From Alkalicoccobacillus plakortidis (GTDB lineage Bacteria > Bacillota > Bacilli > Bacillales > Bacillaceae_D), in contig NZ_JAMQJY010000001.1 of the NCBI RefSeq assembly GCF_023703085.1, positions 1,488,001-1,552,000 on the forward strand: a stretch of 64,000 nt of DNA. Reading direction: 5' to 3'. Positions 17,612 to 46,490 of this stretch are shown in pieces; positions within the stretch are counted from its first letter, which is position 1; each line of letters begins with the position of its first letter. The position numbers and the translations under genes were made by a program. Below the pieces are notes generated by a model. It was not told where the DNA came from. It saw nothing but the letters and a program-made list of their open reading frames with translations, and searched no databases.

Positions 17612-18338
17612 AGCAAGACGGATGCTGTGGTTAGCACGAGGTTTGGGCTTTTTAGCAAGACCTTGCGGTGGTTACTAAGACATATTGTGTTCTCTCTAAG
17701 ATCTGACTTCTGTTACCAAGCGAGATCTCCTTCTCTCCAAGACCTGACCGCTGTTTCCAAGTGAGATCTCCTTCTTTCCAAGATCTCGCCGCTGTTACCA
17801 AGCTAGATCTCCTTCTTTCCAAGACCTTACCCCTGTTACCAAGCGGGATCTCTTCCTCTCCAAGACCTGACCTCTGTTACCAAGAGGGATCTCTTCCTCT
17901 CCAAGACCTGACCTCTGTTACCAAGAGGGATCTCTTTCTCTCCAAGACCTCGCTGCTGTTACCAAGCGAAATCTCCTTCTCTCCAAGACCTGACCCCTGT
18001 TATCAAGCGGAATCTCCTTCTCTCCAAGACCTTACCCCTGTTACCAAGCGGGATCTCCTTCTCTCCAAGACCTTACCCCTATTACCAAGCGAAATCTCCT
18101 TCTCTCCAAGACCTTACCCCTGTTATCAAGCGGAATCTCTTTCTCTCCAAGACCCTGCCCCTGTTACCAAGCGAAATCTCCTCCTGTCCAAGACCTGCCC
18201 TCTGTTACCAAGAGAAATCTCTTCCTCTCCATGACCTGACCCCTGTTTCCAAGAGAATTCTCTTTCTCTCCAAGACACTGCCCCTGTTTCCAAGCGAGAT
18301 TACGTACTTAGCAAGAGGTCACTTCGGTTACCAACAAA
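17612..18338 (-). repeat. Phased CTTGG array A (CCAAG on + strand), ~35 copies every 20-21 bp
   Basis: A short motif, ACCAAG/TCCAAG on the + strand (CTTGG on the minus strand), recurs with spacing alternating 20 and 21 bp. The final G falls at 17700, 17720, 17741, 17761, 17782, 17802, 17823, 17843, 17864, 17884, 17905 and so on to 18294. Two motifs make a 41-bp unit whose intervening bases (gacctgacccctgtt, then cgagatctccttctct) are also semi-conserved. A + strand open frame across it is a by-product of the 41-bp period (41-residue period) and is not called as a gene. The array lies between the ndh 3' end and the yuiB start. Confidence 0.9.
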
Positions 18339-18376
18339 AAAAGAGAAACGAACAACAAATATTGTCCATTTCTCGC
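18335..18376 (-). terminator. Terminator of ndh
   Basis: On the minus strand GAGAAA and TTTCTC pair across a long loop and are followed by seven T, 23 bp past the ndh stop. Confidence 0.6.
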
Positions 18377-18398
18377 ATCTATATTTTAGTTTTTAAAA

Positions 18399-19598
18399 TT
18401 AAAATGGTTTCTTCCCTTTTTTCAATACGAGGCCTACTCCACCTAAAAGAAGAAGGTAGCGGTTATCAATCATTTTTTTCATGAAGTTTGCTGTTCCGCC
18501 GTATAGTTTTCGTGATCCTACAGCTCCAATGGCTTCTTTACCTCCAAGTGAGGCAACTGTTCCTTTGATATCTGGTTTAAAGGTTTTTAGTTCTCCGCCG
18601 TTTATTAAGGCGTTCAAATTGCTGGCACAGATTTCAGCCATCTGCATGGCAATTTGTGCTGTTGGTGGGTATGGTCGGTTAATTTCTTCGTTAATGATCA
18701 GGGCACAGTCTCCGATGATGAAGATATTGTCATGTCCTGGGGCACGAAGTTCTGGTTCGACTTTGATTCGTCCACGCATGTTATCGAATCCTGAGCGTTC
18801 AATGATGGAGCTTCCACGAACACCTGTCGCCCATACTACAGTTGAAGCTTTTATTTCTTCGCCTTCTCCTACTACAACTCCAGAATCTGTTACTTCTTTG
18901 ATTGGCGTGTTGATTTTAAATTCAACGCCACGGCTTTCTAGTAGATTCATTGCATACTCTACTAGTTCTGGATCAAATCCAGGTAGTGCGGTAGGGGCTG
19001 CTTCTACTACGTATAGTTTCACTTTTTCACGAGCAATATCATACTGTTTGCATAACTGTGGAACGCGCTCAGACAACTCACCGATAAATTCAATTCCTGT
19101 AAATCCTGCTCCTGCTACAGCAAAGGTAAGTAATCCTTCTTCTTTTTCTACTTGATTATTGTATTTCGCAAAACAGTTTTCAATGTGATCTTTAATTTGA
19201 CGTGCACCATTCACTGTCCATTTGCTGTACGCATGTTCTTTTACACCTGGTACTCCAAAGGTTTCAGCTTCTGCTCCAAGTCCAACAACTAAATAATCGT
19301 AGTCAAGCTCTCCGTCTTTTAGTAGAACTTTTTTTTCTTCTGTTTTAATTTCAACAACTTCATCCTGAACAAAATTGATTTTACGAAAATCTACTACGCT
19401 TTTGATTGGCATTCTTGTTTTTTCAGGTAGCATCGTTCCTGCTGCGGGTTCATGTAACCATGTTGTTTGATAATGGTAATCATGCTTATTTACAAGCGTG
19501 ATTTTTGCTTCATTATCTCCCATTTTTTTCTGAAGCCTCGTTGCTGTGATCATTCCACCATAACCTGCGCCAAGAATGACAATATGCGGCTTATTCAC
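18399..19598 (-). CDS. ndh: Type II NADH dehydrogenase (YumB/Ndh)
   Basis: 399 residues. Membrane-associated, non-proton-pumping NADH:menaquinone oxidoreductase. The FAD site [17 protein letters not shown] is at residues 6-22, the NADH site [17 protein letters not shown] at about 157, and VIWATGVRG and FIIGDCALI follow. The C-terminal amphipathic and hydrophobic end ([25 protein letters not shown]) is the membrane-binding part. GTG start with GGAAGTG just upstream. In B. subtilis yumB is next to yumC, as here. Confidence 0.9.
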
Positions 19599-19861
19599 GA
19601 TATCACTTCCATCAGTTTATTTTATAAGTGCGTTTTATGTGATCTATTTCACGAACTAATATACAAAGATACGTTTGTACTAAATCCGACGCAAAATAGA
19701 CACATCTTATCTACATCCTATGATATGTGTTTTCTCCAGACTTTTCAACATTTTTCGTGTGATTTATGAAAGAAGTTCTAACATAGCCTTATCTGCTTCC
19801 TACATTATATGAGAATGCTAATCTTAATTTAAGAAAAACAAGTGAAAAAGATTCTCATCCT

Positions 19862-19890
19862 TTGTTTTTCCTTTTAAGTACAGCTATAAT
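19862..19890 (+). promoter_or_regulatory. SigA-type promoter of yumC
   Basis: TTGTTT at 19862 and TATAAT at 19885 with a 17-bp spacer, 35 bp before the yumC start. Upstream, ATGAGAAT (19809) and ATTCTCAT (19850) form a distant inverted pair with a loosely Fur-box-like look. Confidence 0.65.
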
Positions 19891-19925
19891 GGATAAGGCA
19901 GGTAATAATTCGGAGGTGTCTAAAC

Positions 19926-20918
19926 ATGTCAGAGCAAGAAGATTTATTTGATATAACGATCATCGGGGGAGGGCCAACTGGCTTATTCGCTGCTTTTTAT
20001 GCAGGCATGCGTAAAGCTAAGGTGAAAATTATTGAAAGTATGCCGCAGTTAGGTGGACAGCTTTCAGCCCTTTACCCTGAAAAATATATATATGATGTTG
20101 CAGGATTTCCTAAGGTGAAAGCTCAGGATCTTATTGAACAGTTAACCATTCAAGCGCAACAATTTAACCCTGAAATCGTACTTGAGCAGGCTGTTTCAGA
20201 ATTAACGAAACAAGATGATGAAACATTTATAATTACAACAGATAAAGAAACTCATTATTCTAAAGCCGTTATCATTACAGCAGGAGCGGGTGCATTCCAA
20301 CCTCGCCGTCTTCAACTAGAAGGTGCTGAAGCATATGAACAGACAAACCTACATTACTTTATAAAAGACTTAAGTGAATTTGCTGGAAAACGTGTGGTTG
20401 TATTAGGTGGAGGAGATTCGGCATTAGACTGGTCTCTAATGCTTGAACCACTAGCAAAAGAAGTAACAATCGTACACCGTCGTGATAAGTTCCGTGCGCA
20501 TGAGCATAGTGTGCAGTTGCTTGAAGAATCCAATGTGAACATCGTTACTCCATATGAAATTACTGGCCTTAACGGAGAAAATGGTGCCATAACTCAAGTT
20601 GAGTTAAGTGAAGTGAAGGGTGAAGGCAAAAAAACAATTGATGTTGATGCCCTTATTGTTAATTACGGATTTGTTTCCTCGCTTGGCCCAATTAAAGAAT
20701 GGGGTCTTGAGATTGAGAAGAATTCCATTGTGGTGAATACAAAAATGGAGACAAATATTAAAGGGATTTACGGTGCCGGCGACATTTGTACCTATGATGG
20801 AAAGGTAAAGCTGATTGCAACAGGATTTGGTGAAGCTCCAACGGCTGTTAACAATGCAAAAGCGTATATTGATCCAAAAGCACGGGTATTTCCAGGACAC
20901 AGTACAAGCTTATTTTAA
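19926..20918 (+). CDS. yumC: Ferredoxin/flavodoxin--NADP+ reductase YumC
   Basis: 330 residues, thioredoxin-reductase-like FNR. The FAD motif [16 protein letters not shown] is near the N-terminus, the NADPH motif [15 protein letters not shown] at about 155-170 with [11 protein letters not shown] after it, and [32 protein letters not shown] closes the FAD site. It lacks the CxxC of true thioredoxin reductases, consistent with FNR. Strong site CGGAGGTG 8 nt before ATG, own promoter and terminator. Confidence 0.93.
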
Positions 20919-20929
20919 AATAAAACAAC

Positions 20930-20967
20930 AAAACCTGCTGATTATGTAAGCTAATCAGCAGGTTTTT
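20930..20967. terminator. Bidirectional terminator
   Basis: Stem AAAACCTGCTGATTA facing TAATCAGCAGGTTTTT, between the convergent yumC and mtlD genes. Confidence 0.9.
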
Positions 20968-20975
20968 GTATGGTT

Positions 20976-22097
20976 TTATATAAGCGCTTGGATTAATGGG
21001 TGGTTCTCTTCTAATCCAGTTACTTGAATTAGCGTTTCTTTTTTTCCTTTTTCTTTAAGTAGCTTCTGTAGCTCCTGGCTCTCAGTATCATCAGCCACGT
21101 CAAAATGAAGGGCTGCTTCAATGACTTCAAGAAGCACGCTTGGGACTTGACCTTGATCAAACAACATTCTTGCCGGTTTGATTAAGCGATCGTTAAAGCC
21201 AAGTTTACGGATTGGTCCTCGCCCAACTCGCACAATGTCATCTGAAAGATACGGATTCTCAAAACGTCCAATAATCTTTGTGATGTAGGCTTCATGTTCA
21301 GCTTTGTCAAAACCATATTCTTGGACAAGCACGAGTTTGGTCTCATTTAAACCTGCTTGAACCTTATGTTTCACGTCTTGATCTTCCATCGCTTCTTTAA
21401 TCGTTGTTAAGCCTTTTTCATAACCAAAATACGCGGCTAAAGCATGTCCCGTATTAACAGTGAACAGCTTACGTTCAATAAAAGGAATGAGATCATCTAC
21501 GTACGTCACGCCTTCAATCGCTGCATTGTCACCTTTTAATGATGGCTTTTCAACTACCCACTCAAAAAATGGTTCAACGGAAACAGCAAGAATATCTTCG
21601 TTTTTTTGATTAGGAACAATACGATCAACTGCGGCATCAGCAAAACCGGTTTTCTGAATGATGGTTGCCCACTCTGATTCAGAAACCTGATCCTTTGTAT
21701 ATTCCTTTAATGTCGATGTCGCACGGATAGCATTTTCACAAGCGATTACATCGACTGGTTTAGCATCTGCTGCACGTTGCTTTAGCCCTTTCGCCAATGT
21801 TGGTGCAATGAATTTAAGAACAGTAGGACCAACAGCCGTTGTAATTAAATCAGCTGTAGCAATCTCATGTACTAAGGCATCTTCTTCTTGATTACTATGA
21901 AGTCCACGAACACCTGTAACAAGCTCCTGTCCTCCTTCTTCACTAGCAATTGTAACTGTATATTCTCCACGGTTATTTAATTCAGATATCACAGCTTCAT
22001 TTACATCTGCAAATACTACCTCGTAACCTGCACGGCTTAAAAGGGCGCCAATAAATCCGCGCCCAATATTACCTGCTCCAAAATGTACAGCTTTCAT
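20976..22097 (-). CDS. mtlD: Mannitol-1-phosphate 5-dehydrogenase
   Basis: 373 residues. Oxidises mannitol-1-phosphate to fructose-6-phosphate with NAD+. The N-terminal Rossmann motif HFGAGNIGRGFIGALLSRAGY and the polyol dehydrogenase signature KLFTVNTGHALAAYFGY, with the catalytic Lys and the conserved Asn-x-x-His, are present. Last gene of the mtl operon; its ATG overlaps the mtlF stop by one base (TAATG), so it is translationally coupled. Confidence 0.95.
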   Translation of the reverse strand: MKAVHFGAGNIGRGFIGALLSRAGYEVVFADVNEAVISELNNRGEYTVTIASEEGGQELVTGVRGLHSNQEEDALVHEIATADLITTAVGPTVLKFIAPTLAKGLKQRAADAKPVDVIACENAIRATSTLKEYTKDQVSESEWATIIQKTGFADAAVDRIVPNQKNEDILAVSVEPFFEWVVEKPSLKGDNAAIEGVTYVDDLIPFIERKLFTVNTGHALAAYFGYEKGLTTIKEAMEDQDVKHKVQAGLNETKLVLVQEYGFDKAEHEAYITKIIGRFENPYLSDDIVRVGRGPIRKLGFNDRLIKPARMLFDQGQVPSVLLEVIEAALHFDVADDTESQELQKLLKEKGKKETLIQVTGLEENHPLIQALI

Positions 22098-22534
22098 TAT
22101 TCATTCACCTCTGAGAAAAATGCAAGCACTTCATCAGATGTTTTAGATGTTAATAACTTCTCAACATTTTCTTCCTCGGAGCAAGCAATCGCGATTTTTG
22201 ATAGGATCTCTAAATGTTCGTTTCCTTTTCCTGCAATGCCAATAACAAGACGGACATCATTTCCATCCCAATCAATTGCGTCGTTATAAAGAAGAATGGA
22301 GATTCCTGATTCCTTCACTTCCCCTTTTGCTTCCTCTGTACCATGAGGAATCGCAAGCATATTCCCCATAAATGTAGATGTTAATTCTTCACGTTCGTGC
22401 ATTTTTGCTACATATTCAGCCGTCACGTATCCACGCTCAGACAGAAGTGTTCCTGCCTCTTCAATGGCTTCTTTTTTTGTTTTAGCTTGTGCATTTACTA
22501 CAATATTGTCTTGTTTCAGAATAGAATTTGTCAT
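22097..22534 (-). CDS. mtlF: Mannitol-specific PTS enzyme IIA
   Basis: 145 residues. Phosphocarrier that passes phosphate from HPr to the EIIB domain of MtlA. The phosphorylated His is in AIPHGTEEAKGEVKESGISIL, with ADLVTAEY-like N-terminal helix features of the fructose/mannitol IIA family. Overlaps mtlR by 4 bp (ATGA) and mtlD by 1 bp. Confidence 0.94.
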   Translation of the reverse strand: MTNSILKQDNIVVNAQAKTKKEAIEEAGTLLSERGYVTAEYVAKMHEREELTSTFMGNMLAIPHGTEEAKGEVKESGISILLYNDAIDWDGNDVRLVIGIAGKGNEHLEILSKIAIACSEEENVEKLLTSKTSDEVLAFFSEVNE

Positions 22535-24627
22535 AATTTGTGCACTCCTTTTTGTACTAGCTTTTGAATATATTCAAAACAATGCTGACTAATTAGTTTC
22601 TTAATCTCTGCCTCTGTGCCAGTTTCCATGATGCGTGTATGTTCATCACTTGAGATGAGCATCACACTTAAGCTACTTAGCAAATCAAGCAGGTTCTGGT
22701 TGGCATCAATTGGTGCCAACATTAAAATGACCCTATTTACAATGACGGGCTTATCACCCATCGAGGCAAGAGATTCTTCCACATCAAGTCGAAGCATTGT
22801 AAAGACCGGTTTTAATACTTGCTCTGTTCTAGTATGAAATAAAGCCAGATTTGTATCAGGTATTCCAAGTCCACCTAAACGTTCTCGTTGTAGTAGGGCT
22901 TCAAAAACAGGAACTGCATCCGTTACACAACCTGCTTCTTCAAGTTCTGTACAAACATGAGCAAGAGCCTCGTCCATTACTTTACCCTTTTTTAGGGAAA
23001 ATGAATCTATTATTAACGCAACATCCTGGCTAAGCAGTGATAACTGTTCAAAAAACGTTTCAGGTATATTAGCTCCAACCATTTTTTGCTCATTTGCTAC
23101 AGGTCGACTTACAATTGGACGCTTTTTCTTTACTGATTTAATATGCTGCCTTATTTGTTCCGTTTCTTCTTTTGATAAAAATGGTTTCACTAAAAAATAT
23201 TGCTCACTTTGAGTTAAGGGTACAGTTGAGATAATGAGATCGTAGTACCTGGCTTCGTGTTTATTAAAATCAAATAACGAAACATTGTCGATCTGTTCAA
23301 TTTCTGGGAACTCTTTCTCAAGTCGACTTGCTAAGAGTTTTGATGAGCCGATCCCACTTGAGCAGATAACCATAGCCTTCAAAGGATTTTTTTGATTTTG
23401 TCGTTCAATAGCAGAACCAAAATGCATCACTAAAAACCCAATCTCTTCCTCAGGGACAATTAGTGGATCAAACACTTTCTCCGTTACTTCTTTAACTCGT
23501 TTATATAAACTGGCGTAGTTTTGCTTAATTCTTTCAAGTAAAGGATTATGAATTTTCATCCCATGATTCATTCTGTAAAGCGCCGGCTCAAGATGTGAAA
23601 TCAGCCCCGGATATAGAGAATGATCGTCAAAACTAAGCTCCAGATTGTTTTCCATTTGTTTAATAAGACGATCTGCATAATAAGAGAGTTCAGTGTACTC
23701 TTCATTATTAAATAAATTGTACTCCTTTTGAATCTTTGCTCCTCGAAGATGCATAACAATGTAGCCAATCTCTTCTTCAGGAATGGAGATAGAGAAAATA
23801 TTTTCTAAAGAAATCGCTAATGTTTTGGCTAACTCATACACTGTTTCCTGTTGCAATTCGGATAATTGTTCTTCATCCATTTGCACTTTCTCACCCTGCT
23901 GAATTCGTTCAATCGCCAATGCTAAATGAACAATAAGCCCAATATAAGAGGAGTCGGCCATTTGCCCATTAGAATGTGTCCGAAGATCCTCAACCGCTTC
24001 TTGAACACGTTGGATTTTTTTTGCGTCTACAATATCAAGTAAACGCTCTGAGATTGATTCAGTTTCTGATTGATCAGAAGAGTAGTCTCCTACTGAGTGA
24101 TAAAAATTACTCTCACTAATATTCTCAGTGATTAAACGGCTTAAACTACGTCTGATATTTGTTTCAGAGCCTGCTACCTCAACTCCATACCCGCGACGCC
24201 TTATGAGAGTTAGGTGATATGAAGATAGCCACTCTTCGACTTTTGTCAAATCATGGCTGACTGTTGCAACTGTTACATTTAATTCTTCTGCAAGAGAAAA
24301 AAGCTTTACTGGCTCCTGCTTTTCAAGCAAGGCTACAAGTAAAAGCAACTGTCGTTCTTCAGGAGTATATTCACTTGGCTCCAACGAAGCTAAATCATTC
24401 TTTAATTGAATAAGATCCTCTTGTGCTCCAAGAATCTGATATCCCTTCGTCAAATCTTTATGTAAAGTGAGGTCATAGTCTGACATGACCCCACTCAAGC
24501 CTTTTAGATCTCGTTGAATTGTTCTAGTACTAACATCAAGAGAAGAGGCTAATTCACGTAAATCTAATTGATTCTGCTCATTAAGTAGAAGTTTTAACAG
24601 CTGTCTTTCTCTAGCTGGAATATACAT
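22531..24627 (-). CDS. mtlR: Mannitol operon transcriptional activator MtlR
   Basis: 698 residues, the full size of Bacillus MtlR. The order is an N-terminal HTH (ELASSLDVSTRTIQRDLKGL), a second HTH (LNVTVATVSHDLTKVEEWL), two PTS-regulated PRD domains with conserved His (LIVHLALAIER, IGYIVMHLRGA, LISHLEPALYR, IGFLVMHFGSA), an EIIB-Gat-like domain with CSSGIGSSK, and a C-terminal EIIA-like domain. Phosphorylation by HPr and MtlF sets its activity in known relatives. It sits inside the operon, between mtlA and mtlF. Confidence 0.94.
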   Translation of the reverse strand: MYIPARERQLLKLLLNEQNQLDLRELASSLDVSTRTIQRDLKGLSGVMSDYDLTLHKDLTKGYQILGAQEDLIQLKNDLASLEPSEYTPEERQLLLLVALLEKQEPVKLFSLAEELNVTVATVSHDLTKVEEWLSSYHLTLIRRRGYGVEVAGSETNIRRSLSRLITENISESNFYHSVGDYSSDQSETESISERLLDIVDAKKIQRVQEAVEDLRTHSNGQMADSSYIGLIVHLALAIERIQQGEKVQMDEEQLSELQQETVYELAKTLAISLENIFSISIPEEEIGYIVMHLRGAKIQKEYNLFNNEEYTELSYYADRLIKQMENNLELSFDDHSLYPGLISHLEPALYRMNHGMKIHNPLLERIKQNYASLYKRVKEVTEKVFDPLIVPEEEIGFLVMHFGSAIERQNQKNPLKAMVICSSGIGSSKLLASRLEKEFPEIEQIDNVSLFDFNKHEARYYDLIISTVPLTQSEQYFLVKPFLSKEETEQIRQHIKSVKKKRPIVSRPVANEQKMVGANIPETFFEQLSLLSQDVALIIDSFSLKKGKVMDEALAHVCTELEEAGCVTDAVPVFEALLQRERLGGLGIPDTNLALFHTRTEQVLKPVFTMLRLDVEESLASMGDKPVIVNRVILMLAPIDANQNLLDLLSSLSVMLISSDEHTRIMETGTEAEIKKLISQHCFEYIQKLVQKGVHKL

Positions 24628-24651
24628 GAACTCCCCTCCTCTTTTGTGATG

Positions 24652-26661: not shown

Positions 26662-26680
26662 TAATGAATATCTAATTTGT

Positions 26681-30236: not shown

Positions 30237-30805
30237 ATAAGTGAAACAGCAAGTGAAAAAGGTAGAAACAAAAAAAGAATTGAAAACGCTGCACTTACTC
30301 TTTTTAGAGAAAAAGGGTTTGATCGTACAACTGTACAAGAAATCACAACCGCAGCTCGTGTAGCTAAAGGAACCTTTTTTAATTATTTTCCTACCAAAGA
30401 ATCAATTATGCACTCCTTAGCAAAGGAAAGACTAAGTAGCGTAATGAGGTATATTCGAAAATATCCTCGGAATCAGTTACAGCTTTCTAATCGAATTCAT
30501 TCATACTTATACTTTATCCTAGACGAATACGACCAACATCCTACTCTAACTATTCAGATTTGGCGTTGTGTTCTTGATGATGAGCACTTGCTTTTAGCTC
30601 ACTGGCGCGAATTACTTCAAACAGCCCTGACTCGCGATGAAATTTATGCCGAAACAGATATTGAACTTTGGGCACATATTATTCATTCTCATGTTTCCTA
30701 TGGTATTCACCTGTATTCTAAAGAACCTACACGTATACGATTATTAAATCGCGTAATGACGTTAGTCGAAGCAAGTTTATCAGCCATTATCGCGAAAAGG
30801 AGTAA
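30237..30805 (+). CDS. TetR-family regulator (start and end disturbed)
   Basis: The HTH region (RIENAALTLFREKGFDRTTVQEITTAARVAKGTFFNYFPTKE) and an all-helical C-terminal domain form a normal TetR of about 188 residues. AAGGAG stands 6 nt before ATA 30237, where ATG-Ser-Glu would be typical. Alternatively GTG 30241 is the start if the A7 run at 30270 has lost one A. The frame then runs without a stop into yutJ; one extra A in GCGAAAAGG at 30793-30799 would end it as AKKE-stop at 30805. I therefore treat the fusion as apparent and give separate genes. The ligand is unknown. Confidence 0.7.
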
Positions 30806-30812
30806 ACCTTAC

Positions 30813-31880
30813 ATGGAAAAACTAGTTATTCTAGGTGCTGGTTATGGCGGAATGCGTGTTATGCAGCGACTTCTTCCAAATGACCTGCCAAAAAATGTTG
30901 AGATTACGTTAATTGATCGCTTGCCCTACCATTGTTTAAAAACAGAATATTATGCTCTCGCTGCAGGTACTGCCGCAGATCATCATTTACGCGTTGCCTT
31001 TCCTGAAGACTCTCGTTTAAAAGTAACATATGCTAACGTCGATTCAATTGAACTTGAAGAAAAAGCAGTGATCCTCGAGAGCGGAGAGTCTGTTCCATAC
31101 GATAAGCTCATTGTTGGACTTGGTTGCGAAGACAAATATCATGGCGTTCCAGGCGCCAAAGAACATGCTTATAGTATTCAAACAATGGGAGCCACTCGTA
31201 AGACTTATGAAGCCCTAAACAACGTTCGTCCGGAAGGAATCGTATCGATTGTAGGCGGTGGCTTAAGTGGTGTCGAATTAGCAAGTGAACTTCGCGAAAG
31301 TCGACCTGATTTAACCATCAAATTGTTCGACCGTGGTGAAATGATTTTATCTGCATTCCCACGCAAACTAAGCACGTATGTACAAGGATGGTTCGTTGAC
31401 CATGGTGTTGACATCATCAATAAATCAAATATCACAAAAGTAGAACCCGATGCTATCTATAATCATGACGAACGAATTGAAGTCGATGCAGTTATTTGGA
31501 CAGCAGGCATTCAACCAGTTGAAGTCGTACGGAACTTAGACGTAGCAAAAGATTCCGCAGGTCGTATCGAATTAACCCCACAACATTTTCTTCCCGGTAA
31601 CGAAGATGTATTTGTAGTAGGTGACTGTGCGAGCCTGCCTCATGCCCCAAGTGCGCAGCTAGCAGAAGGGCAGGCCGAACAAATTGTTCAGATCCTCAAG
31701 GCACAGTGGAACGGAGAAGCCTTACCTGAACAGCTGCCAAAAATTAAACTAAAAGGTGTACTAGGTTCACTAGGCAAAAAGCACGGATTTGGCCTTATGG
31801 GCGAACGTACATTACTCGGACGAGTCCCCCGCGTATTAAAAAGTGGTGTGCTTTGGATGTACAAGTATCACTCAGGATGA
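30813..31880 (+). CDS. yutJ: NADH dehydrogenase-like protein YutJ
   Basis: 355 residues, the exact length of B. subtilis YutJ. The FAD motif [16 protein letters not shown] is at the start, the NADH motif VSIVGGGLSGVELASEL in the middle, and the C-terminal VVGDCASLPHAPSAQLAEGQAEQIVQIL is conserved. Probably a type II NADH:quinone oxidoreductase-like flavoprotein; the electron acceptor is not proven. AAAAGGAG lies 10 nt before ATG 30813, inside the end of the TetR gene, so the two are co-transcribed. Confidence 0.9.
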   Translation: MEKLVILGAGYGGMRVMQRLLPNDLPKNVEITLIDRLPYHCLKTEYYALAAGTAADHHLRVAFPEDSRLKVTYANVDSIELEEKAVILESGESVPYDKLIVGLGCEDKYHGVPGAKEHAYSIQTMGATRKTYEALNNVRPEGIVSIVGGGLSGVELASELRESRPDLTIKLFDRGEMILSAFPRKLSTYVQGWFVDHGVDIINKSNITKVEPDAIYNHDERIEVDAVIWTAGIQPVEVVRNLDVAKDSAGRIELTPQHFLPGNEDVFVVGDCASLPHAPSAQLAEGQAEQIVQILKAQWNGEALPEQLPKIKLKGVLGSLGKKHGFGLMGERTLLGRVPRVLKSGVLWMYKYHSG

Positions 31881-31887: not shown

Positions 31888-31923
31888 AAAAAGCAGTAGC
31901 CCGGCCGGCTACTGCTTTTTTTC
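31888..31923 (+). terminator. Terminator of yutJ
   Basis: Stem AAAAAGCAGTAGCC with GGCTACTGCTTTTT around a GC-rich loop, then a T-run, 8 bp after the stop. Confidence 0.9.
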
Positions 31924-31953: not shown

Positions 31954-32286
31954 CTTGTTATGTAGGGAGCGGGCTTGGTGTTGGGAGTGCGAGCTTGGTG
32001 TTGACCGCTCCGGCTTGGTGTTGGTCGCTCCGGCTTGGTGCGGTGCTCTCGAGCTTGGTGTTTAGGTGTTTTCTCTTAGTGTTAAGGACGTTTCTCTTGG
32101 TATCTCAGCATACTTCTTAGTGAGGAGGCCTCCTATCTTGCTATTAGCATCCTCTTCTTGCCATACTCCGAATCAAGCTTGGTGTTCACAAATTCTCTCT
32201 TGGTACCACTTTCCCTCTCTTACTAAATCTAGATCTGTCTTGGTGGGTCAGCTCATCGTCTTGATTATGGAGCCCCCCTTCTTGCT
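31954..32286 (+). repeat. Phased CTTGG array B1, 17 copies every 20-21 bp
   Basis: CTTGG or close variants (CTTAG, CTTGC, CTTAC, CTTGA) begin at 31954, 31974, 31994, 32014, 32034, 32054, 32075, 32096, 32116, 32137, 32157, 32178, 32199, 32219, 32239, 32260 and 32281. Spacing is always 20 or 21 bp. The first units read CGGCTTGGTGTTGGTCGCTC-like and are more alike; later ones diverge outside the motif. It lies on the coding strand after yutJ, between convergent genes. Open frames across it are not credible genes. Confidence 0.92.
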
Positions 32287-32307
32287 AAACTCCAAATGCC
32301 CTCATAC

Positions 32308-32342
32308 GATAGAAAAATGGACATTTTTCTTCCTTATTTCAT
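32308..32342. repeat. Array tail element, copy 1
   Basis: A 35-bp block with a 9-bp inverted repeat (AGAAAAATG/CATTTTTCT, loop GA) followed by TCCTTATTTCAT. Recurs at 32624-32658 with only the 2-nt loop changed. Confidence 0.85.
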
Positions 32343-32370
32343 TTGAATTAGATCTTTGATGCAGTTGGGT

Positions 32371-32602
32371 CTTGATGTGTTGGCTTTGTTCTTGGTGTCA
32401 AAGTCATATCTCTTGGCACACCCCCACCCGTCTTGGTGCTCCGCCATTCGTTCTTGTTATAGACACCATCTTCTTGCCAAACTTCCCATCCAGCTTGGTT
32501 TTCCCCGACTTACTCTTGCCAAGACTTTCACTCTCTTGCTAAATCGAAATCGATCTTGGTTCTCCGCCTATCCGTCTTACTCACAAAGCACTTCTTCTTG
32601 CA
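32371..32602 (+). repeat. Phased CTTGG array B2, 12 copies every 20-21 bp
   Basis: CTTGG and variants begin at 32371, 32391, 32412, 32432, 32453, 32473, 32494, 32515, 32535, 32555, 32576 and 32597. Same spacing rule and orientation as array B1, and it ends in the same tail element, so the module (array plus tail) is duplicated in tandem. Confidence 0.92.
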
Positions 32603-32623: not shown

Positions 32624-32658
32624 GATAGAAAAATGTTCATTTTTCTTCCTTATTTCAT
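32624..32658. repeat. Array tail element, copy 2
   Basis: Identical to the block at 32308-32342 except for the hairpin loop (TT instead of GA). It reaches the last base of the convergent yuzD gene. Confidence 0.85.
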
Positions 32659-32969
32659 CAGACAGCCGCTTCAACCTTAGCTGACACACTTTTGAGATTT
32701 GGATTTCCTTCTGCAATAACTTCTCCATTTAATACGACGAGTGGATAAAAGTATTCATCATTTAAGATGGCTTCAGAGAATGATTCTTGTTCTTCTCCGT
32801 TTGGATTCTCGATATCCACATATAAAACTTCTAACCCAATGTCGGGGAATTTTCTACTTAATGCTGCTTCTAACCATTCCTTTGTTTCTAATGCACTTGG
32901 CAGATGTACACAGCTTGCACATTTCTGTTCAGCACCGTATACAGTCACTATTATTCCGATAGTACTCAC
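32658..32969 (-). CDS. yuzD: DUF1462 protein YuzD
   Basis: 103 residues with a thioredoxin-like CASC motif in YGAEQKCASCVHLPSALET and the conserved end VLNGEVIAEGNPNLKSV. B. subtilis YuzD is the same and sits beside yutI. Likely a thiol-disulfide or Fe-S-related small protein. Start GTG 32969 is close to its GAGAGGA site; a slightly later GTG is possible. Confidence 0.87.
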   Translation of the reverse strand: MSTIGIIVTVYGAEQKCASCVHLPSALETKEWLEAALSRKFPDIGLEVLYVDIENPNGEEQESFSEAILNDEYFYPLVVLNGEVIAEGNPNLKSVSAKVEAAV

Positions 32970-38207: not shown

Positions 38208-38319
38208 AGTTACCCTCCTCACATCCTGTTTCATTATAAATAGTCTATGACCCAGTCGCATAAAATGTGTACAGCAATCGTAGACTAAACAAAATCATTT
38301 GGATAAAAGGAGAGTCGAT

Positions 38320-39586: not shown

Positions 39587-39606
39587 CCTTCATTTCCTTT
39601 CTCATA

Positions 39607-39632
39607 TAAAAAGCCGCCCTCTAGGACGGCTT
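39607..39632 (-). terminator. Terminator of the SufR-like gene
   Basis: On the minus strand AAGCCGTCC pairs with GGGCGGCTT (one mismatch) and is followed by TTTTTATATG; it overlaps the stop codon. Confidence 0.75.
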
Positions 39633-40275
39633 AATTAGCTGAAGTTGTTTGTTTCTTTATGGTATATACACAGTGTGCATCACCATTCTCTGCCATACAA
39701 GCCGTACGTTCTACCTCATTTGTATCAAGTAACTCCTTAAACAATCGCTTTTCACATGCACATGCAACTGGATACGACTTGGCTACGTGAGCAATTGGAC
39801 AATTGTATTCAATAAATTCATACGAACCATCCTCTTTTTCAGTCCAATTCACCATATATCCTTGTTCATTTTGAATATCGGCTAATGCCTGTACACGTTC
39901 TCCCAGACTACCTGTTACAATTGATTGATACGACTGATGAAGGCGTTCGTGACGTTTGTTAAATAGCTGATTAATCGTATCAGCCCCATACATCATCCGT
40001 AAATCATCTAAAAAGCCTAATGATAAATGACTATAGTTTCGTGGGAAATTCTCATTTCCTTGTTCTGTTAAATAAAATTTATGAACTGGCCGTCCCATTG
40101 TTTGGCGAACCACACGGGACGTAATTAATTGCTCTTCTTCTAAACCACGCAAGTGACGTCTTACCGCCATTTCTGTAATATTGAGCTCTGCGGCAAGCTC
40201 TGCTGTAGTCAGCTCGTGCTTACGCTTTAACAGGGTTAAAACAGTTGAACGAGTTGACGTTGTTTGGTCTCTCAT
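39631..40275 (-). CDS. SufR-like Fe-S-sensing transcription regulator
   Basis: 214 residues. N-terminal winged helix (TTAELAAELNITEMAVRRHLRGLEEEQLITSRVV..GRPVHKFYLTEQGNENFP), then a C-terminal domain whose cysteines (NCPIAHVA..ACACEKRLF..RTACMAENGDAHCVY) match the cluster ligands of SufR-type regulators. Such proteins sense Fe-S status and control cluster assembly genes; targets here are not known. Start 40275 has GGTGG 8 nt upstream. Confidence 0.8.
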   Translation of the reverse strand: MRDQTTSTRSTVLTLLKRKHELTTAELAAELNITEMAVRRHLRGLEEEQLITSRVVRQTMGRPVHKFYLTEQGNENFPRNYSHLSLGFLDDLRMMYGADTINQLFNKRHERLHQSYQSIVTGSLGERVQALADIQNEQGYMVNWTEKEDGSYEFIEYNCPIAHVAKSYPVACACEKRLFKELLDTNEVERTACMAENGDAHCVYTIKKQTTSAN

Positions 40276-40336
40276 TCCGTCCACCACCTTACGTTTATTG
40301 TAAGCGACGGATGTTCTTTTTGTAAAACGACAACTC

Positions 40337-40783
40337 TTAGTCAGTTTTTGGCAAGAAAGCAGAAACTGGCCCTAGTTCGTTTTCTACATATAAACGGACC
40401 TTCGAAGGAAATGCCGTTAATGCTTGCCAATGTGTACATAACAAGTCGTACAAGTTGTCATGATCGATTGTGCCTGTTGTTTGAATGATTTCTTTTCTAC
40501 ATTGCACAATTTGTTTTAGTGACTCTCCATGTTCATTGCTAATGACTTTTTCATCGATTAATATATCAACAATGTCCGCATAACTGCCTGGATCACGCAT
40601 GATGAATCCATCAATGATACTGTTCCCAACATCAATAATGGATTCGATTAATAAATAACAAACACGCTCTAAGGCTAATTCTTCAATTGCACGATTTCGT
40701 TTTTGTAACTGGTCAATGAGTGGAAAAAGTGATTCCATATAGTCCAAGGTTTCATCTATTTTTTTTCGATCAACAAAATACAC
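40337..40783 (-). CDS. yutE: DUF86/HepT-like protein YutE
   Basis: 148 residues, alpha-helical HEPN-superfamily HepT-like protein. I start at GTG 40783 (YFVDRKKIDETL) with AAAGGATG 6-7 nt upstream, which is where B. subtilis YutE starts. Conserved VCYLLIESIIDVGNSIIDGFIMRDPGSYADI and ENELGPVSAFLP. No partner nucleotidyltransferase (MntA) is next to it and the RxxxxH RNase motif is not evident, so it may not be a toxin. Confidence 0.85.
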   Translation of the reverse strand: MYFVDRKKIDETLDYMESLFPLIDQLQKRNRAIEELALERVCYLLIESIIDVGNSIIDGFIMRDPGSYADIVDILIDEKVISNEHGESLKQIVQCRKEIIQTTGTIDHDNLYDLLCTHWQALTAFPSKVRLYVENELGPVSAFLPKTD

Positions 40784-40861
40784 GTGTATCATCCTTTCAA
40801 CTAAAAACGCGCCAAAATAAATTCATACTCACTGGGCACCCTACGAACACAGGGGGTTCTT

Positions 40862-41125
40862 ATGACAAAAAAACAAAATCAAGCCGAGTATCATGATTTT
40901 AAAAATGTTGAAGCTATGCATAACTATGTGATTCCAGAAGCTACTCCTGAAGGTCCGTATGGTTCGCCTTATGGAGAGAATTCACCTGTCGAAGGAAAAA
41001 GTACGGAGTGGAAGCCTGGACAGCGAACATACAGTGCCTTTAACTATGTAAATAAAGACTTACACCAGCACACTCCTAGGAAGTATCCTGGGCATCACCC
41101 TCCGCACGATTCAACCTCAGACTAA
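40862..41125 (+). CDS. Small hydrophilic protein
   Basis: 87 residues, rich in Pro, Gly, Tyr and His (PEATPEGPYGSPYGENSP; HTPRKYPGHHPPHD), no signal or membrane segment. AGGGGG lies 5 nt before ATG. Looks like a Bacillaceae small cytosolic or spore-associated protein. I do not recognise the family by name. Confidence 0.65.
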   Translation: MTKKQNQAEYHDFKNVEAMHNYVIPEATPEGPYGSPYGENSPVEGKSTEWKPGQRTYSAFNYVNKDLHQHTPRKYPGHHPPHDSTSD

Positions 41126-41147
41126 ATTCACAAGTAAAATAGGGGGC

Positions 41148-41465
41148 TTATTTGCCCTCTTTTTGTTTGCTTTTGTTTCCTTTTTCAGTCCGCTTTTTCA
41201 CTCGTTTGACGACAAAATAGGCGCAGCCAAAGTTACAGTATTCATATAAGTAATCAGGTAGCGTACTTATTTTTGAATCGTACGTTGATTTCTTATGTTT
41301 GTCTTCAAAGAAACCTCTGAGGCGCAATTGATTATAACCCCAGTCACCTACAATATAATCGTATTTATTTAAAATATCGCTGTATCGCGATTTGAAGGCT
41401 TCTTCGTCCCATCCTTCTTTTATATCCTCAACGACTTCAAACTGAAGTTCTTGAATTGTGACCAA
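41148..41465 (-). CDS. yutD: DUF1027 protein YutD
   Basis: 105 residues: YDYIVGDWGYNQLRLRGFFED, ISTLPDYLYEYCNFGCAYFVVKRVK is the YutD signature, with two Cys and a basic Lys-rich tail. Start TTG 41465 has AGAGGTG 6 nt upstream. Follows the B. subtilis order (yutE, yutD, lipA). Function unknown. Confidence 0.88.
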   Translation of the reverse strand: MVTIQELQFEVVEDIKEGWDEEAFKSRYSDILNKYDYIVGDWGYNQLRLRGFFEDKHKKSTYDSKISTLPDYLYEYCNFGCAYFVVKRVKKRTEKGNKSKQKEGK

Positions 41466-41539
41466 CGCGTACACCTCTCACGTTTCATTTTTTCCATTGT
41501 ATCATACGCAGACATTGGCAGGAAATGTTCTCTCAAGTA

Positions 41540-41583
41540 AAAAAAGATAGCTAATGCGTACGTTCCACACACAAGCTATCCTG
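41540..41583 (-). terminator. Terminator of lipA
   Basis: On the minus strand GATAGCT pairs with AGCTATC (long loop) and is followed by seven T. Confidence 0.8.
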
Positions 41584-41596
41584 ATTATTTGTTTAC

Positions 41597-42517
41597 TTAT
41601 TTTACAGCTGATTCATTTTGAACTTTTCTAGCTTCTTCATTAACTTGAGCCTGATTCACTTGCTCATCTGCATGGTAGGACGAACGAACCAAAGGACCTG
41701 CTTCACAATGGCTGAATCCTTTACTCATTGCAATTTCACGAAGCTCAGCAAATTCATCTGGATGATAATATTTTTGAACCTTTAGGTGTTTTTTTGTTGG
41801 TTGCAAGTACTGACCAATCGTCATGATGTTGACGTTATTTGCACGTAAGTCATCCATCGTTTCAATGATTTCTTCCTTGGTTTCACCTAGTCCAATCATC
41901 AAACTAGATTTAGTTGGAATATCCTCATGCATTTCCTTTGCACGACGGAGAAATTCAAGCGTGCGATCATACGTTGCACGGGCGCGAACTCTTGGTGATA
42001 AGCGACGTACCGTTTCAATATTATGGTTCATTATATTAGGTCGTGCATTCATTAATGTTTGTAGACTATTCTCATTTCCAAGCATGTCTGAAGGTAAGAC
42101 TTCAATTGTGCAGAAAGGGTTTTTGCGACGAATAGCACGAACAGTTTCTGCAAATACCTCAGAACCGCCATCCTTAAGATCGTCTCTGGCAACAGCTGTA
42201 ATGACGACATGTTTCAGTCCCATATCACTCACTGAATCTGCAACACGTTCCGGTTCTTGTAAGTCTAACTCTGTGGGAAGGCCTGTTTTGACTGCACAAA
42301 ATCTGCAGGCCCTTGTACAAGTATCACCTAGTATCATAAATGTTGCTGTTTTCCTTACAGCCCAACACTCATGGATGTTAGGACACCGTGCTTCCTCACA
42401 TACCGTATGTAGTTTTTTTTCACGCATCATTTTTTTCAGGCCTGTATAAGATTCATTGATATTAAGCTTAATTTTAAGCCACTCCGGCTTGCGAATATGC
42501 TCTTCTTTCTTTGCCAA
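41597..42517 (-). CDS. lipA: Lipoyl synthase
   Basis: 306 residues, radical-SAM enzyme inserting two sulfurs into octanoyl groups to make lipoate. The auxiliary cluster motif [12 protein letters not shown] and the SAM-cluster motif CTRACRFC are both intact, followed by [14 protein letters not shown] and GLGETKEEI; the conserved [13 protein letters not shown] lies near the end. I start at TTG 42517 ([12 protein letters not shown]), as in B. subtilis; ATG 42529 would add four residues. Fe-S supply by YutM/YutI is plausible. Confidence 0.94.
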
Positions 42518-42698
42518 CCTACTCACCATCCTTACTATTCATATCTATTTTAGTATTCATTCTTTTCTTACTTTATCACGAACTAGTCTATTAAGCCAAA
42601 CCACCTATTCAAAAAAATTCCCAATCTTTCACTGCAATATTTCTTATTGGAAAGCTCAAACTACAGACATTACCCTTGATTGAAAGGAGCAGCTCTAA

Positions 42699-43700
42699 AT
42701 GAACCGCAACCGTCTTTTTTTTATCTGTATTACTGTTCTTATATGTGTACAAATGCTGCTTCCTCAAACAGGAGTAGCAGTAGAGCAAACCAATACAACT
42801 TATGAAGATCGGATGAACCTTTATAAAAAAACAGAAACACTTACAAATGTGCCTTGGCATTACCTTGCAGCTGTTGACACCTACGAACGAGGACTTAGAA
42901 AAGCGCTTCGTGACCGTGATGAAGAGCAAGGTCTAATCTCCATCTTTTACTCGCCATCACAATGGTCAGGTCCTCTAAATCCAGACCTAGGAGACACCAA
43001 TCCGCTATCAATTAACGTTTTTGGAGGAGTGGGTCTGGATGGAGATGGAGATGGAATTGCTGATCGCTTTAATGATGCTGATATTCTATTTACATTTGCT
43101 CATTTTTTAGAGAAATACGGATTTAAAGAAGAAGATATGCGTATCGCGCTATGGGAATATTATAAGCGTGAACAATCGGTAAACATTGTTCAATCACACG
43201 CCAGGACCTACAAAGAATTAGGAAGACTAGACCTTCATGACCACAGCTTTGTGATGCCTTTACACGCCAACTATAGCTACCGAAGTACCTGGGGAGCAAA
43301 ACGTGGCTTGGGGCGGCCGTCGTATACATGAAGGCACAGATCTATTTGCAGGTTATGGCGTACCGATTCAATCTACTTCTTACGGGACTGTTGAATTAAT
43401 TGGGTGGAATAACTACGGTGGTTGGAGAGTCGGCATACGTGATTTAGATAACATCTATCATTATTATGCCCACCTTAGCGGCTTTGAAAAAGGATTAGAA
43501 AAAGGAGACGTCGTTAAGCCAGGACAAGTGGTTGGATACTGCGGAAGCTCTGGATACGGAAAACCAGGCACACAAGGTAAATTCCCTCCCCATCTGCATT
43601 ATGGCATGTATCGTGACAACGGAGTGACCGAATGGTCCTTTGATCCGTACCCACTATTAAAAAGCTGGAGAGACAAGCTTATAAGAATAGGAAGAGGTAA
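42699..43700 (+). CDS. lytH: LytH-like M23 peptidase (two frameshifts, likely artefact)
   Basis: About 333 residues after repair. An N-terminal signal anchor (LFFICITVLICVQMLL) is followed by a helical region and a LytM/M23 metallopeptidase domain: HEGTDLFAGYGVPI (zinc ligands His and Asp), HYYAHLSGFEKG and PPHLHYGMY (HxH). The frame breaks at GCTTGG 43306-43311; GCTGG restores KRGWGGRRIHEG. Near the end one G is missing from GCTGG 43664-43668; GCTGGG gives KSWERQ and a stop at 43700. In B. subtilis LytH trims cortex muropeptides during sporulation and lies next to yunB. Confidence 0.87.
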
Positions 43701-43786
43701 GGATGGAGTATCCTCCTGGAAAACCACCACTCGAGAGTCAATCGCCACGTTCAGCTCTATGACAATCCTCTGCAAATTTTTTATAA

Positions 43787-43836
43787 AAAACAAACGACGA
43801 ACGTTCCTCAATAAAGGAATGTTCGCCGCTTTGCTT
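43787..43836. terminator. Bidirectional terminator
   Basis: Stem CGACGAACGTTCCT with AGGAATGTTCGCCG (two mismatches), A-run upstream and TTTGC downstream, between lytH and the convergent transporter genes. Confidence 0.8.
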
Positions 43837-43869
43837 TGTCTATTTACTTTTGTTCCCGTATGGGTGAGT

Positions 43870-43989
43870 TTACTTCATTTCAGCTTTTCTTCGTTTGGTT
43901 GCTTTTCTAGCATTAAGGATGCTGAATACTAATCCGCCCCAAATGATGGTTGTACTTAAAATAAGCATGATAATGGCACTAGTACTCAT
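43870..43989 (-). CDS. MetS-type small subunit of NSS transporter
   Basis: A 39-residue single-helix protein (MSTSAIIMLILSTTIIWGGLVFSILNARKA, basic tail). Its ATG shares a base with the stop of the large transporter gene (TAATG). This is the layout of MetS, the small partner needed by MetP-type methionine/alanine NSS importers. It is easy to miss because of its size. Confidence 0.8.
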   Translation of the reverse strand: MSTSAIIMLILSTTIIWGGLVFSILNARKATKRRKAEMK

Positions 43990-45515
43990 TAGTCATCGTT
44001 CCCTTCTTTTTGAATCTGTTCAATCGTCAGTTTATTTTTGCCTGTCTTCCACTTAATCGCAGTAATGATAAATCCAACAACAATTGCAAGTATCGCTACA
44101 GTCCAACCGAACATGATAAGGAAGCTAGTTGGATAGTCCTCATAATTTGTTGTTAGGTTTGTCACCAAGTTTTGTATAAGCATAACTCCCAATACAAGTG
44201 GTGTCACAATCGTAAGACAAAATGTCCACCATCCACCAATTTGAAAATCAGAAACGCTATTGGCGTGATCTTTTAATTCAGGTAACTTACGTAGGATCCA
44301 TGCAACGACTATAACCGATATGAGACCTGATACAGCAATTCCAAAATTATTAATAAAATAATCGACTGTATCTAACACACGGATTCCGTTTTGAGTAGTA
44401 TAGATTAAAGAAATAATCGCTGAGAGTCCTCCACCAAAAATAACTGCCTTTGTGCGACTCACATTAAACTTATCTTGAATTCCTGCTACATATGTTTCAA
44501 CTATAGAAATTAATGAGGTTAACCCTGCAAGTACTAAGCATCCAAAAAACAGTACTCCAAAGAACTCATTAAAACCTGGAAATGTGCTAATGATTTGTGG
44601 AAATACTACAAAGGCAAGACCGATTCCTCCTGTTGCTACTTCATTAACCCCTACTCCATTTTGTACAGCCATAAAGCCAAGAACAGAGAAAACACCGATC
44701 CCTGCTAAAATTTCAAAGCCTGAGTTACTAAACCCTGCAATAAATGCATTATTATTTATATCCGCTTTTTTCGGTAAATAACTTGCATAAGTAATCATGA
44801 TAGCAAATGCCACTGATAGACTAAAGAAAATATGTCCATATGCCGCAACCCAAACGGCTTGGCTCGCGAAGGCCTTCCCAATCTGGTTTAAAGAATGCAT
44901 CTAATCCTGTCATCGCACCTTCAAGCGTCAATGCACGAATCACAATACACAAGAACATAATAACTAACGCTTGGAATAATAATTCGATTGGCAAGCTCAA
45001 TTCCTCGTTTTACTCCTTTAAATAAAACACCAAGTGTGACAAGCCATACAAGGATAAGCGGTATTAATATACCTGGTACGATTGAGCCCATGTCATTGGC
45101 TGATGCTGTTGCATGTAAAAATGAATTAAAGAAAAAGCTGTCTGGGTCGTCCCCCCAAGCTTAAATTAAATGAAAAAATAGTATAGGATAATGCCCATGC
45201 AATAATTACAGAATAATATGTAGAAATAACAAATGCTATTGCAACCTGCCACCATCCCATTCCTTCAGCCTTCTTATTAAGTCTTGCATAGGTAAGTGGA
45301 GAGGATCCCCGGAACCGCTGACCGAGTGAGAATTCCATTATTAAAATAGGTATCCCTGCTGTTAATAAAGCAAACAAATACGGAATTAAAAAAGCGCCTC
45401 CTCCGTTTTCATATGCTACATAGGGAAATCTCCAAATATTCCCCAACCCTACTGCTGAGCCAATCGCTGCAAGGATAAAACCTGCCCTTGACCCCCACTG
45501 TTCTCTTTCTGCCAT
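43989..45515 (-). CDS. Sodium-dependent (NSS) amino-acid transporter, MetP-like (three frameshifts, likely artefact)
   Basis: Neurotransmitter:sodium symporter family, about 507 residues and 12 helices after repair. The start REQWGSRAGFILAAIGSAVGLGNIWRFPYVAYENGGGAF holds the family sodium/substrate site. Frame switches fall at CCAAGC/GCTTGG 45155-45160, 44969-44974 and 44857-44862. Each CCAGC/GCTGG repair continues the protein (LSWGDDPDSFF; IIPALVIMFLCIVIRALTLEGAM; EPAVWVAAYGHIFFSLS). With the small subunit gene it probably imports methionine or another neutral amino acid with Na+. Confidence 0.87.
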
Positions 45516-45832
45516 ATTGTTCCAAACTCCCTTCAACTCGTTAAAAATTGCCAAACATTTAGTCAAAATGATCTGACAATTAAGATTGGACATAATTTAT
45601 TAATATCAAGTGTTAACTGCCATCACAATGTCAACTATTTATTATAGGCATGCATCTTACAATTGTCAAAGTTAGTTATAACCAATTTTCATTTTAGAAT
45701 TTAATGTTTAAGAACATAAAGTTAAGGGAACTTTAGTATGTTACCTAATTTTGTATACATTCAGTATCTAATATGAGAGAATGAAGTAACAGCTTCACGA
45801 TGGGCTGAATCGATATCGAGGAGTGTGACCCC

Positions 45833-46015
45833 GTGTACAAAGTAACTCGTACTGTAAAAGGGGTAACAGAGACTCTGAAGGATTCAAACAGCCATTTGGA
45901 TAAAACCTTTACAGATTCTGTTGCCGCAGAATTGTTGGCAAAGAAACTGAACGCAAACACATTGATGAACACTGAACATTGGACCGTACAGTCCGTTAGT
46001 TTGACTAGTCAATAA
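45833..46015 (+). CDS. Small hypothetical protein
   Basis: 60 residues, starting at GTG (YKVTRTVKGVTETLKDS) with GAGGAG about 10 nt upstream. Soluble, with beta-like start and end around a helix (DSVAAELLAKKLNANTL). No family recognised. A terminator hairpin and the CTTGG array C follow. Confidence 0.55.
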   Translation: MYKVTRTVKGVTETLKDSNSHLDKTFTDSVAAELLAKKLNANTLMNTEHWTVQSVSLTSQ

Positions 46016-46094
46016 GTGGCTGCTTGTTGGTAACAAATTAATTGGAATTTCATAAAAAAAGGAGGCTGGAACAGAAATGTTTCAGCTATCAGAT

Positions 46095-46144
46095 AAACCG
46101 AATCGATATGTTGATTACCTCACATATATTGATTCGGTTTTTTG
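46095..46144. terminator. Terminator-like hairpin
   Basis: AAACCGAATCGATATG faces CATATATTGATTCGGTTT, followed by a T-run on the + strand. Probably ends the small gene at 45833. Confidence 0.75.
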
Positions 46145-46238
46145 TTCTTCAAAAATAAGTGATTGGACATATATAAAGCTGCAGCTGGATGTTGGTGATT
46201 CAAATTGTTTGTCATCTCACCGGTAGTAGCAGAGAGGT

Positions 46239-46490
46239 CTTGGTGTTTTGCGGTGTGTATTGGTGCTGTAGAGGTCTCTTGGTGTGATGTAAGAGGTTCT
46301 TACTATTGCTTCCCTTTCTCTTGCTAGTAAGGAGTGGCTCTTGGTTCCATTGCTTTTTTTCTTTGTGTAGCTGTTCTTTGCTTAGTAACAGATGGATTGC
46401 TCTTGATTTTTCATCAGGTTCTTTTGCTATGGCAGCTAGGATCTTGATGTATTGACTATCTAGCTTGGTTTGAGCATGTGTGTTTCTTGG
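46239..46490 (+). repeat. Phased CTTGG array C, ~13 copies about every 20-21 bp
   Basis: CTTGG, CTTAC, CTTGC, CTTAG, CTTGA and similar begin near 46239, 46259, 46278, 46299, 46320, 46340, 46361, 46381, 46402, 46422, 46443, 46464 and 46486. The spacing is the same as in arrays A and B with small irregularities (19-22). It lies between convergent 3' ends; frames across it are not called. Confidence 0.8.

Follow-up and report, generated by a model that had tools for sequence, protein, structure and literature searches.

A stretch of 64,000 nucleotides from Alkalicoccobacillus plakortidis (contig NZ_JAMQJY010000001.1, positions 1,488,001 to 1,552,000; hereafter the window) carries three members of a family of intergenic arrays that recurs across the genome, as an original prediction made from the letters of the window had proposed, and that is common to related species. 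The arrays are non-coding elements built of blocks of degenerate 20–21 bp units, most often 12 to a block, with a CTTGnT core on one strand. The cores lie on nearly the same side of the double helix, and some blocks are closed on their 3′ side by the palindrome AAAATGnnCATTTT at one of two fixed distances. On balance, we read these elements as phased DNA-binding arrays under selection, occupied by a presumed protein.

All three arrays singled out in the window are present, at 17612–18338 (array 1), 31954–32602 (array 2), and 46239–46490 (array 3); in array 1, the motif sits on the minus strand and appears as CCAAG in the printed sequence. Exact CCAAG pairs occur in the window 11 times at 20 bp, 11 times at 21 bp, and 21 times at 41 bp, and outside the three arrays every pair distance up to 130 bp is seen at most twice. 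In the whole genome (G000; 4.37 Mb in 9 contigs), the pattern CTTGGN{15,16}CTTGG was found at 271 places, compared with 20 for the reversed pattern, so the excess at 20–21 bp on which the original prediction hinged is genome-wide. Four other species of the genus gave 130 against 10 (G001), 119 against 15 (G002), 116 against 9 (G003), and 783 against 12 (G004). CTTGnT triples numbered 468 in G000, 188 in G001, 282 in G002, 170 in G003, and 1028 in G004, the counts of the congeners including a few coding repeats; the other 36 genomes of the family held at most four each. Trained on the arrays of G000, a weight-matrix chain caller identified 97 arrays in 1.16 Mb and five on the reversed sequence. 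The G004 count, more than twice that of any congener, marks an expansion of the arrays in that species. A coding-like 42-bp repeat also matches the spaced pattern in two places (G001:C10:114592-114891 and G002:C1:119871-120002).

The repeated motif had been described as CTTGG; the constrained core turned out to be CTTGnT instead. Arrays of G003 and G001 were aligned at 16 locus pairs, giving 34 alignments, of which four that covered less than 60% of the array were dropped and 30 were used. Slots were picked by the motif in G003, a choice that does not by itself reduce change in G001, and at multi-block loci the aligner may have matched non-orthologous blocks. Between G003 and G001, the core bases were substituted at 2.6% (C), 3.0% (T), 1.6% (T), 18% (G), 28% (the next base), and 4.6% (the T at +5). 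The bases between the motifs are indeed free to vary, with 31% of positions changed (942/3007); the rate in control non-coding DNA was 10% (796/7652). The arrays are also distinct from clustered regularly interspaced short palindromic repeats (CRISPR), as had been expected: identical repeats are absent, about six of the 20–21 positions being kept, and near-identical repeats with unique spacers were not seen in the arrays (no search for cas genes was made).

Spacing across 24 arrays of G000 averages 20.51 bp (419 intervals), approximately the two helical turns first suggested, and this spacing is maintained between species. Intervals of 20 bp (204 times) and 21 bp (215 times) predominate, those of 19 bp (six) and 22 bp (two) are rare, and some slots are absent. 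In G000, the 20 and 21 bp intervals alternate: the variance of summed length over eight units is 0.31, compared with 1.51 when the spacings are shuffled, and removing the two most homogeneous arrays leaves 0.44 compared with 1.36. This alternation indicates that helical register is maintained. In G003 and G001, the mean spacing is 20.65 and 20.68 bp, respectively. Among alignable adjacent spacings of 20 or 21 bp in G003, 237 of 247 are identical in G001, and whole-unit gains account for four of the 10 altered ones. Spacing in relatives thus does not drift freely; control windows of comparable length in other non-coding DNA of these loci were unchanged in 292 of 339 cases, and the arrays differ from this at p 6e-5.

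The 12-unit blocks, the palindrome, and the polarity of the arrays had been overlooked in the original prediction. Among the fetched loci of the five species, exactly 12 slots are present in 38 of 130 blocks, with 11 slots as the runner-up (10 blocks). Many G001 and G003 blocks share their order of spacings (21,21,21,20,21,20,21 or 22,21,20,21,21), and some G000 blocks nearly match these orders. In 1.375 Mb, 30 copies of the palindrome AAAATGnnCATTTT were counted, each within 90 bp of an array, and four control palindromes gave one occurrence in total, distant from arrays. It lies between blocks in 22 cases and 3′ of the last block in eight; no copy precedes the first block on its 5′ side. The distance from the last core to the palindrome is 13–14 or 33–34 bp in 25 of 27 cases, two values that are one slot apart, and the palindrome is often followed by TTCCTTA(T).

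Gene context was assessed for 76 merged loci of three species, of which 69 were usable, loci in five rRNA/tRNA stretches and those without a called neighbor being dropped. Both the contexts and the intergenic status rest on simple open reading frame (ORF) calls of at least 100 aa from which ORFs over arrays were removed; the arrays are therefore intergenic by exclusion of overlapping ORFs, and some contexts are wrong. Arrays lie between convergent genes in 29 cases, tandem genes in 33, and divergent genes in seven, compared with 63, 243, and 117 of 423 background gaps (convergent enrichment p 1e-6; divergent depletion p 0.0015). Gene 3′ ends next to arrays fall within 150 bp of them in 77 of 91 cases, and 5′ ends in 23 of 47. 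An Rfam scan of seven G003 loci, selected for their odd ORF context, showed that four arrays immediately follow an rRNA operon and that one follows a tRNA cluster. This position behind genes speaks for a function where transcription units end, and, judged from the gene 3′ ends and the four rRNA operons, the silencing role once suggested looks unlikely. The idea that the array strand follows that of the upstream gene was rejected, the two agreeing 17 times and differing 16 times in tandem contexts.

Individual loci were also compared across the genus. At the array 2 locus, an array is present in each of the five species and always faces the same way, with differing unit sequences; the G003 copy is split by an insertion element that looks IS3-like by eye (L285 18300-19690). 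At the array 1 locus, no array follows the orthologous oxidoreductase gene in G001, G003, or G004, and in G002 the neighborhood is rearranged, with an array about 3.5 kb away. Alkalicoccobacillus porphyridii carries CTTGGTAA arrays on contig L084, which has 73% DNA identity to G001 over 1485 bp. Behind the L084 array, a 127-bp stretch (3495–3621) is 97% identical to G004 (L291 7212-7338), coding DNA elsewhere in the contig being only 73% identical to congeners; from this similarity, the stretch is possibly a small mobile element.

In some genomes, the arrays show a polarity relative to replication. The G003 genome is a single contig starting with dnaA, and 24 of its 29 merged loci have the core directed toward oriC (p 0.0005; the terminus was assumed at the midpoint and an interrupted array counted as two loci). 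On contig C21 of G001, the same holds for 10 of 12, loci common to G001 and G003 not being independent. The direction is reversed in G282, a genome of another lineage, where eight of nine fetched arrays face away from oriC; the matches listed for G282 include about half of its 197 places. This polarity suggests that replication direction may matter, via function or via array growth. Exact CTTGG pairs in G003 crowd at ~0–0.83 and 3.2–3.9 Mb (first 100 of 116). A clustering of arrays near the origin was dropped, however, as 18 further 20-kb G003 stretches taken regardless of matches do not show it, with arrays in three of 11 on the origin side and two of seven at 1.0–2.5 Mb.

Arrays of the same period extend beyond the genus. 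TTGG triples at 20–21 bp were counted in 397 genomes of the order, 150 of which were also counted at 24–25 bp, the values being read from tables. At least 20 triples were reached at 20–21 bp by 28 of the 150 genomes and at 24–25 bp by two; G123, a simple repeat, is included in both counts, and some matches at 20–21 bp are coding 21-bp repeats. Outside the order, one of 246 genomes reaches 20 TTGG triples, and it does so through a simple repeat. The reversed control GGTT likewise reaches at least 20 in seven of those 28 genomes, in 13 of 150 at 20–21 bp, and in five of 150 at 24–25 bp, which suggests arrays with other motifs plus some simple repeats. High GGTT counts at 20–21 bp in G075, G093, G143, G153, G247, and others may reflect arrays with yet other motifs. 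Unit sequences vary between lineages (TTGGC..AAAAg in G282, TTGGttGTaaa in G208, TTGGGCCgT in G024, and TTGGGC in Ureibacillus), and the spacing in G282 is mostly 21 bp. A wider contig scan for the spaced pattern had coding-looking 21-bp repeats (e.g., L072) among the matches listed.

Sites repeated every two turns over about 240 bp on one strand, with their spacing kept and an end-piece at fixed distances, point to a duplex recognized by an oligomer. Each core would be bound by a single protomer of an oligomeric protein that probably wraps DNA or forms filaments, with about two turns per protomer. A loaded array may in addition mark or insulate the end of a transcription unit, and such a boundary would halt read-through or contain supercoils near convergent genes and rRNA operons; array polarity could likewise be tied to replication direction. 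These are weaker suggestions, and any particular boundary function is held with far less confidence than protein binding itself.

Several observations weigh against a selected, protein-bound array. No binding protein was found for the arrays, and the free positions have no 10-bp G+C phasing (lag-10 autocorrelation −0.016). Exact copies of AAAATGnnCATTTT are present at only 17 of 82 merged loci. The 12-unit blocks are in part copies of one another: their recurring spacing orders imply partial homology, so the number 12 may reflect descent as well as function. Alternation is weak in G003 (eight-unit variance 1.75, compared with 2.21 shuffled) and in G001 (2.94 compared with 3.60), and in its strict 20/21 form it is a property of G000. 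Array presence per locus turns over within the genus, as at the array 1 locus, and array 1 itself shows that plain 41-bp duplication can also produce arrays. Polarity is weak in G000 (17 vs. 9, p 0.17, in a sample of 26 loci from the arm to the left of dnaA) and mixed in G208 (about eight away and five toward, in clusters read from the matches listed). Substitution at the free positions runs at three times the rate of control non-coding DNA, so reshuffling of units between blocks adds to the contrast between core and free bases; strongly differing units that retain CTT..T would still need selection on the core.

Many of these points are shared by an unlikely but serious alternative, a functionless satellite whose short units multiply through slippage, unequal crossing-over, and the duplication of blocks and are tolerated at gene 3′ ends, with register and core in common because all units share one ancestor. 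The original prediction had set the arrays apart from ordinary minisatellites, which fails for array 1, a 41-bp tandem repeat of 14.9 copies with 86% matches; in array 2, Tandem Repeats Finder listed only 31993–32061, and in array 3 nothing. The tandem structure of array 1 fits a satellite, as do the recurrence of blocks with the same spacing order, the gain or loss of arrays between congeners, and the lack of strict alternation in G003 and G001, and harm to promoters would also explain the avoidance of divergent regions. However, units that have diverged strongly outside the core keep CTT and T, indels that alter spacing are rarer than in other non-coding DNA, and other families have 20–21 bp arrays with other units and hardly any at 24–25 bp. 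We think it rather improbable that the arrays are replication or segregation sites, acting in polar fork passage, guiding a translocase, or serving as centromere-like arrays. The orientation toward oriC in G003 and on G001 C21, the single though opposite polarity of G282, and the crowding of exact G003 pairs toward the origin speak for such sites, but the weak G000 and mixed G208 polarities, the dependence among orthologous loci, and the unbiased G003 stretches, in which origin clustering did not reappear, speak against them.

Two further explanations were weighed. Sites of gyrase or supercoil relief downstream of transcription units, similar to Escherichia coli BIMEs (bacterial interspersed mosaic elements), would account for the placement of arrays after gene 3′ ends and rRNA operons and between convergent genes; in E. 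coli, an enrichment of gyrase sites is described for BIME-2 and for the regions downstream of rRNA operons (PMC6379681). The gyrase motif is nevertheless given there as phased 10-bp G+C variation, which the lag-10 value of the free positions does not reproduce, and a sharp six-base core is not among the gyrase features in the available portion of that source. The gyrase reading was set aside on the phasing test, and we regard it as quite unlikely. A transcribed regulatory RNA, or an RNA sponge with regularly spaced protein-binding motifs, would fit the strand specificity of the motif within each array. We consider it highly implausible, since no folding signal was seen in 13 blocks (z −2.2 to +2.2, both strands), array strand is unrelated to gene strand in tandem contexts, and the conserved spacing is easier to reconcile with a duplex than with a flexible RNA; an Rfam search over the window matched no family at the arrays, its sole match being a lysine riboswitch elsewhere. 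The structured transcript offered by the original prediction finds no support in the same folding and strand data.

No published description of 20–21 bp phased intergenic arrays of Bacillales was found in the open-licence literature, and older or subscription accounts are possible. REP (repetitive extragenic palindromic) elements and BIMEs, like the arrays, occupy intergenic positions at gene 3′ ends. The closest known element is STAR of Staphylococcus, described with the motif TNTGTTGNGGCCC, spacers of 40–44 bp, and the start signature GTGGGACAGAAATGAT (PMC3532100). As in that account, the arrays are interspersed direct repeats, intergenic by simple ORF calls, with a short kept motif and locus-specific variable spacers; in both, loci vary between species and expand and contract, and the function is unknown. 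Unlike the arrays, which often have 12 units at 20–21 bp, most STAR loci described there are single-motif, and the spacers between motifs are 40–44 bp. The STAR motif had no match in 103 sources (the window, 82 stretches of the genus, and 20 of other genera), and a pattern resembling the start signature occurred eight times in 1.375 Mb, once within 200 bp of an array (array 3). The arrays therefore fall outside STAR in motif, spacers, and start signature. A link of the arrays to the CTGGGACA signature was dropped on the same count of one in eight. A dispersed, STAR-start-like signature, CTGG[GA]ACA[GT]AA, was noted at position 46066 of the window and at L285 4660, L291 7537, L321 17189, L337 9107, and L339 4625; in some copies, it is followed by a hairpin with AATGATTC...GAATCATT, and it is unlinked to the arrays.

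Protein-bound repeats offer partial parallels. In ParMRC, parC direct repeats are bound by a ParR dimer-of-dimers in an extended protein–DNA structure (PMC4911067); the arrays resemble it as direct repeats that might work in a similar way, and membership is not claimed. In that account, parC is plasmid-borne beside parM and parR, with 10-bp repeats, whereas the arrays are tens of chromosomal loci with degenerate 20–21 bp units in blocks. No parM/parR-type genes were seen among the genes scanned near the three window arrays. Like REPs and BIMEs as presented in PMC2817692, the arrays are repeats dispersed through the genome and assembled into composite structures. REPs are described as palindromes that alternate in orientation; the arrays are direct repeats with no sign of folding palindromic units in the 13 blocks. 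Promoter DNA bound by RemA, a ring-forming Bacillales protein, also has periodic, poorly conserved repeats (PMC8481266). According to that source, its 7-bp protections and 3-bp gaps give a period of about 10 bp upstream of a promoter, unlike the 20.5 bp of arrays that lie behind genes, and RemA as the array binder was set aside on this difference in period.

In the window, array 1 (17612–18338, minus strand) consists of 34 chained CTTGnT units whose alternating 20 and 21 bp spacings form a 41-bp dimer. It lies between a pyridine nucleotide-disulphide oxidoreductase gene (18399–19598, minus) and a YuiB-family gene (17187–17504, minus). A terminator-like hairpin with a T run (18343–18374, minus) stands behind the upstream oxidoreductase gene, and the array begins immediately afterwards. 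Array 2 is flanked by a second pyridine nucleotide-disulphide oxidoreductase gene and a convergent DUF1462 gene. A perfect inverted repeat followed by a T run (31890–31922, plus) is the terminator of gene 30408–31880, recognized by eye, the terminator scan giving no entry at this position. The first block of array 2 (31954–32285, plus) has 17 slots by hand count and is followed on its 3′ side by the palindrome AAAATGGACATTTT and then TCTTCCTTA (32314–32327, plus). The second block (32371–32601, plus) has exactly 12 slots, spaced 20,21,20,21,20,21,21,20,20,21,21, with the palindrome AAAATGTTCATTTT 3′ of it (32630–32643, plus), directly preceding the 3′ end of the DUF1462 gene (32658–32969, minus).

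Array 3 (46239–46490, plus) has 13 slots, with sodium symporter ORFs on one side and Na+/H+ antiporter ORFs on the other. An 18-pair terminator-like hairpin (46547–46585, minus) lies between the array and the minus-strand antiporter ORFs. Both neighbors seem interrupted (symporter 45126–45593 with 43989–44900; antiporter 46609–47124 with 47081–48208). The family match of the 155-aa symporter ORF is limited to the first 117 of 524 profile positions, and the antiporter is divided between two overlapping ORFs. Upstream of the split antiporter, a lysine riboswitch (RF00168, 121 bits) is located at 48299–48471 on the minus strand. The promoter scan gave no excess near the three window arrays.

Together, the data allow a broader and more tentative proposal, possible rather than probable: that the arrays belong to an undescribed class of elements of a Firmicutes order. 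These would be protein-bound lattices with one site per two turns and a lineage-specific motif co-evolving with its protein. In one genus, their standard length would be 12 sites, matching the protomers of a dodecamer or one full wrap; a palindrome in phase with the sites would close them, replication would set their polarity, and they would serve as physical boundaries of the chromosome where transcription units end. Sharp predictions for footprint period, stoichiometry, and the effect of half-turn insertions follow from the two-turn spacing, the 12-site blocks, and the palindrome. If the proposal is true, many Bacillales chromosomes hold tens of nucleoprotein boundaries that were overlooked because their units share only about six bases, and the topological separation of neighboring transcription units and rRNA operons in bacilli would become testable.

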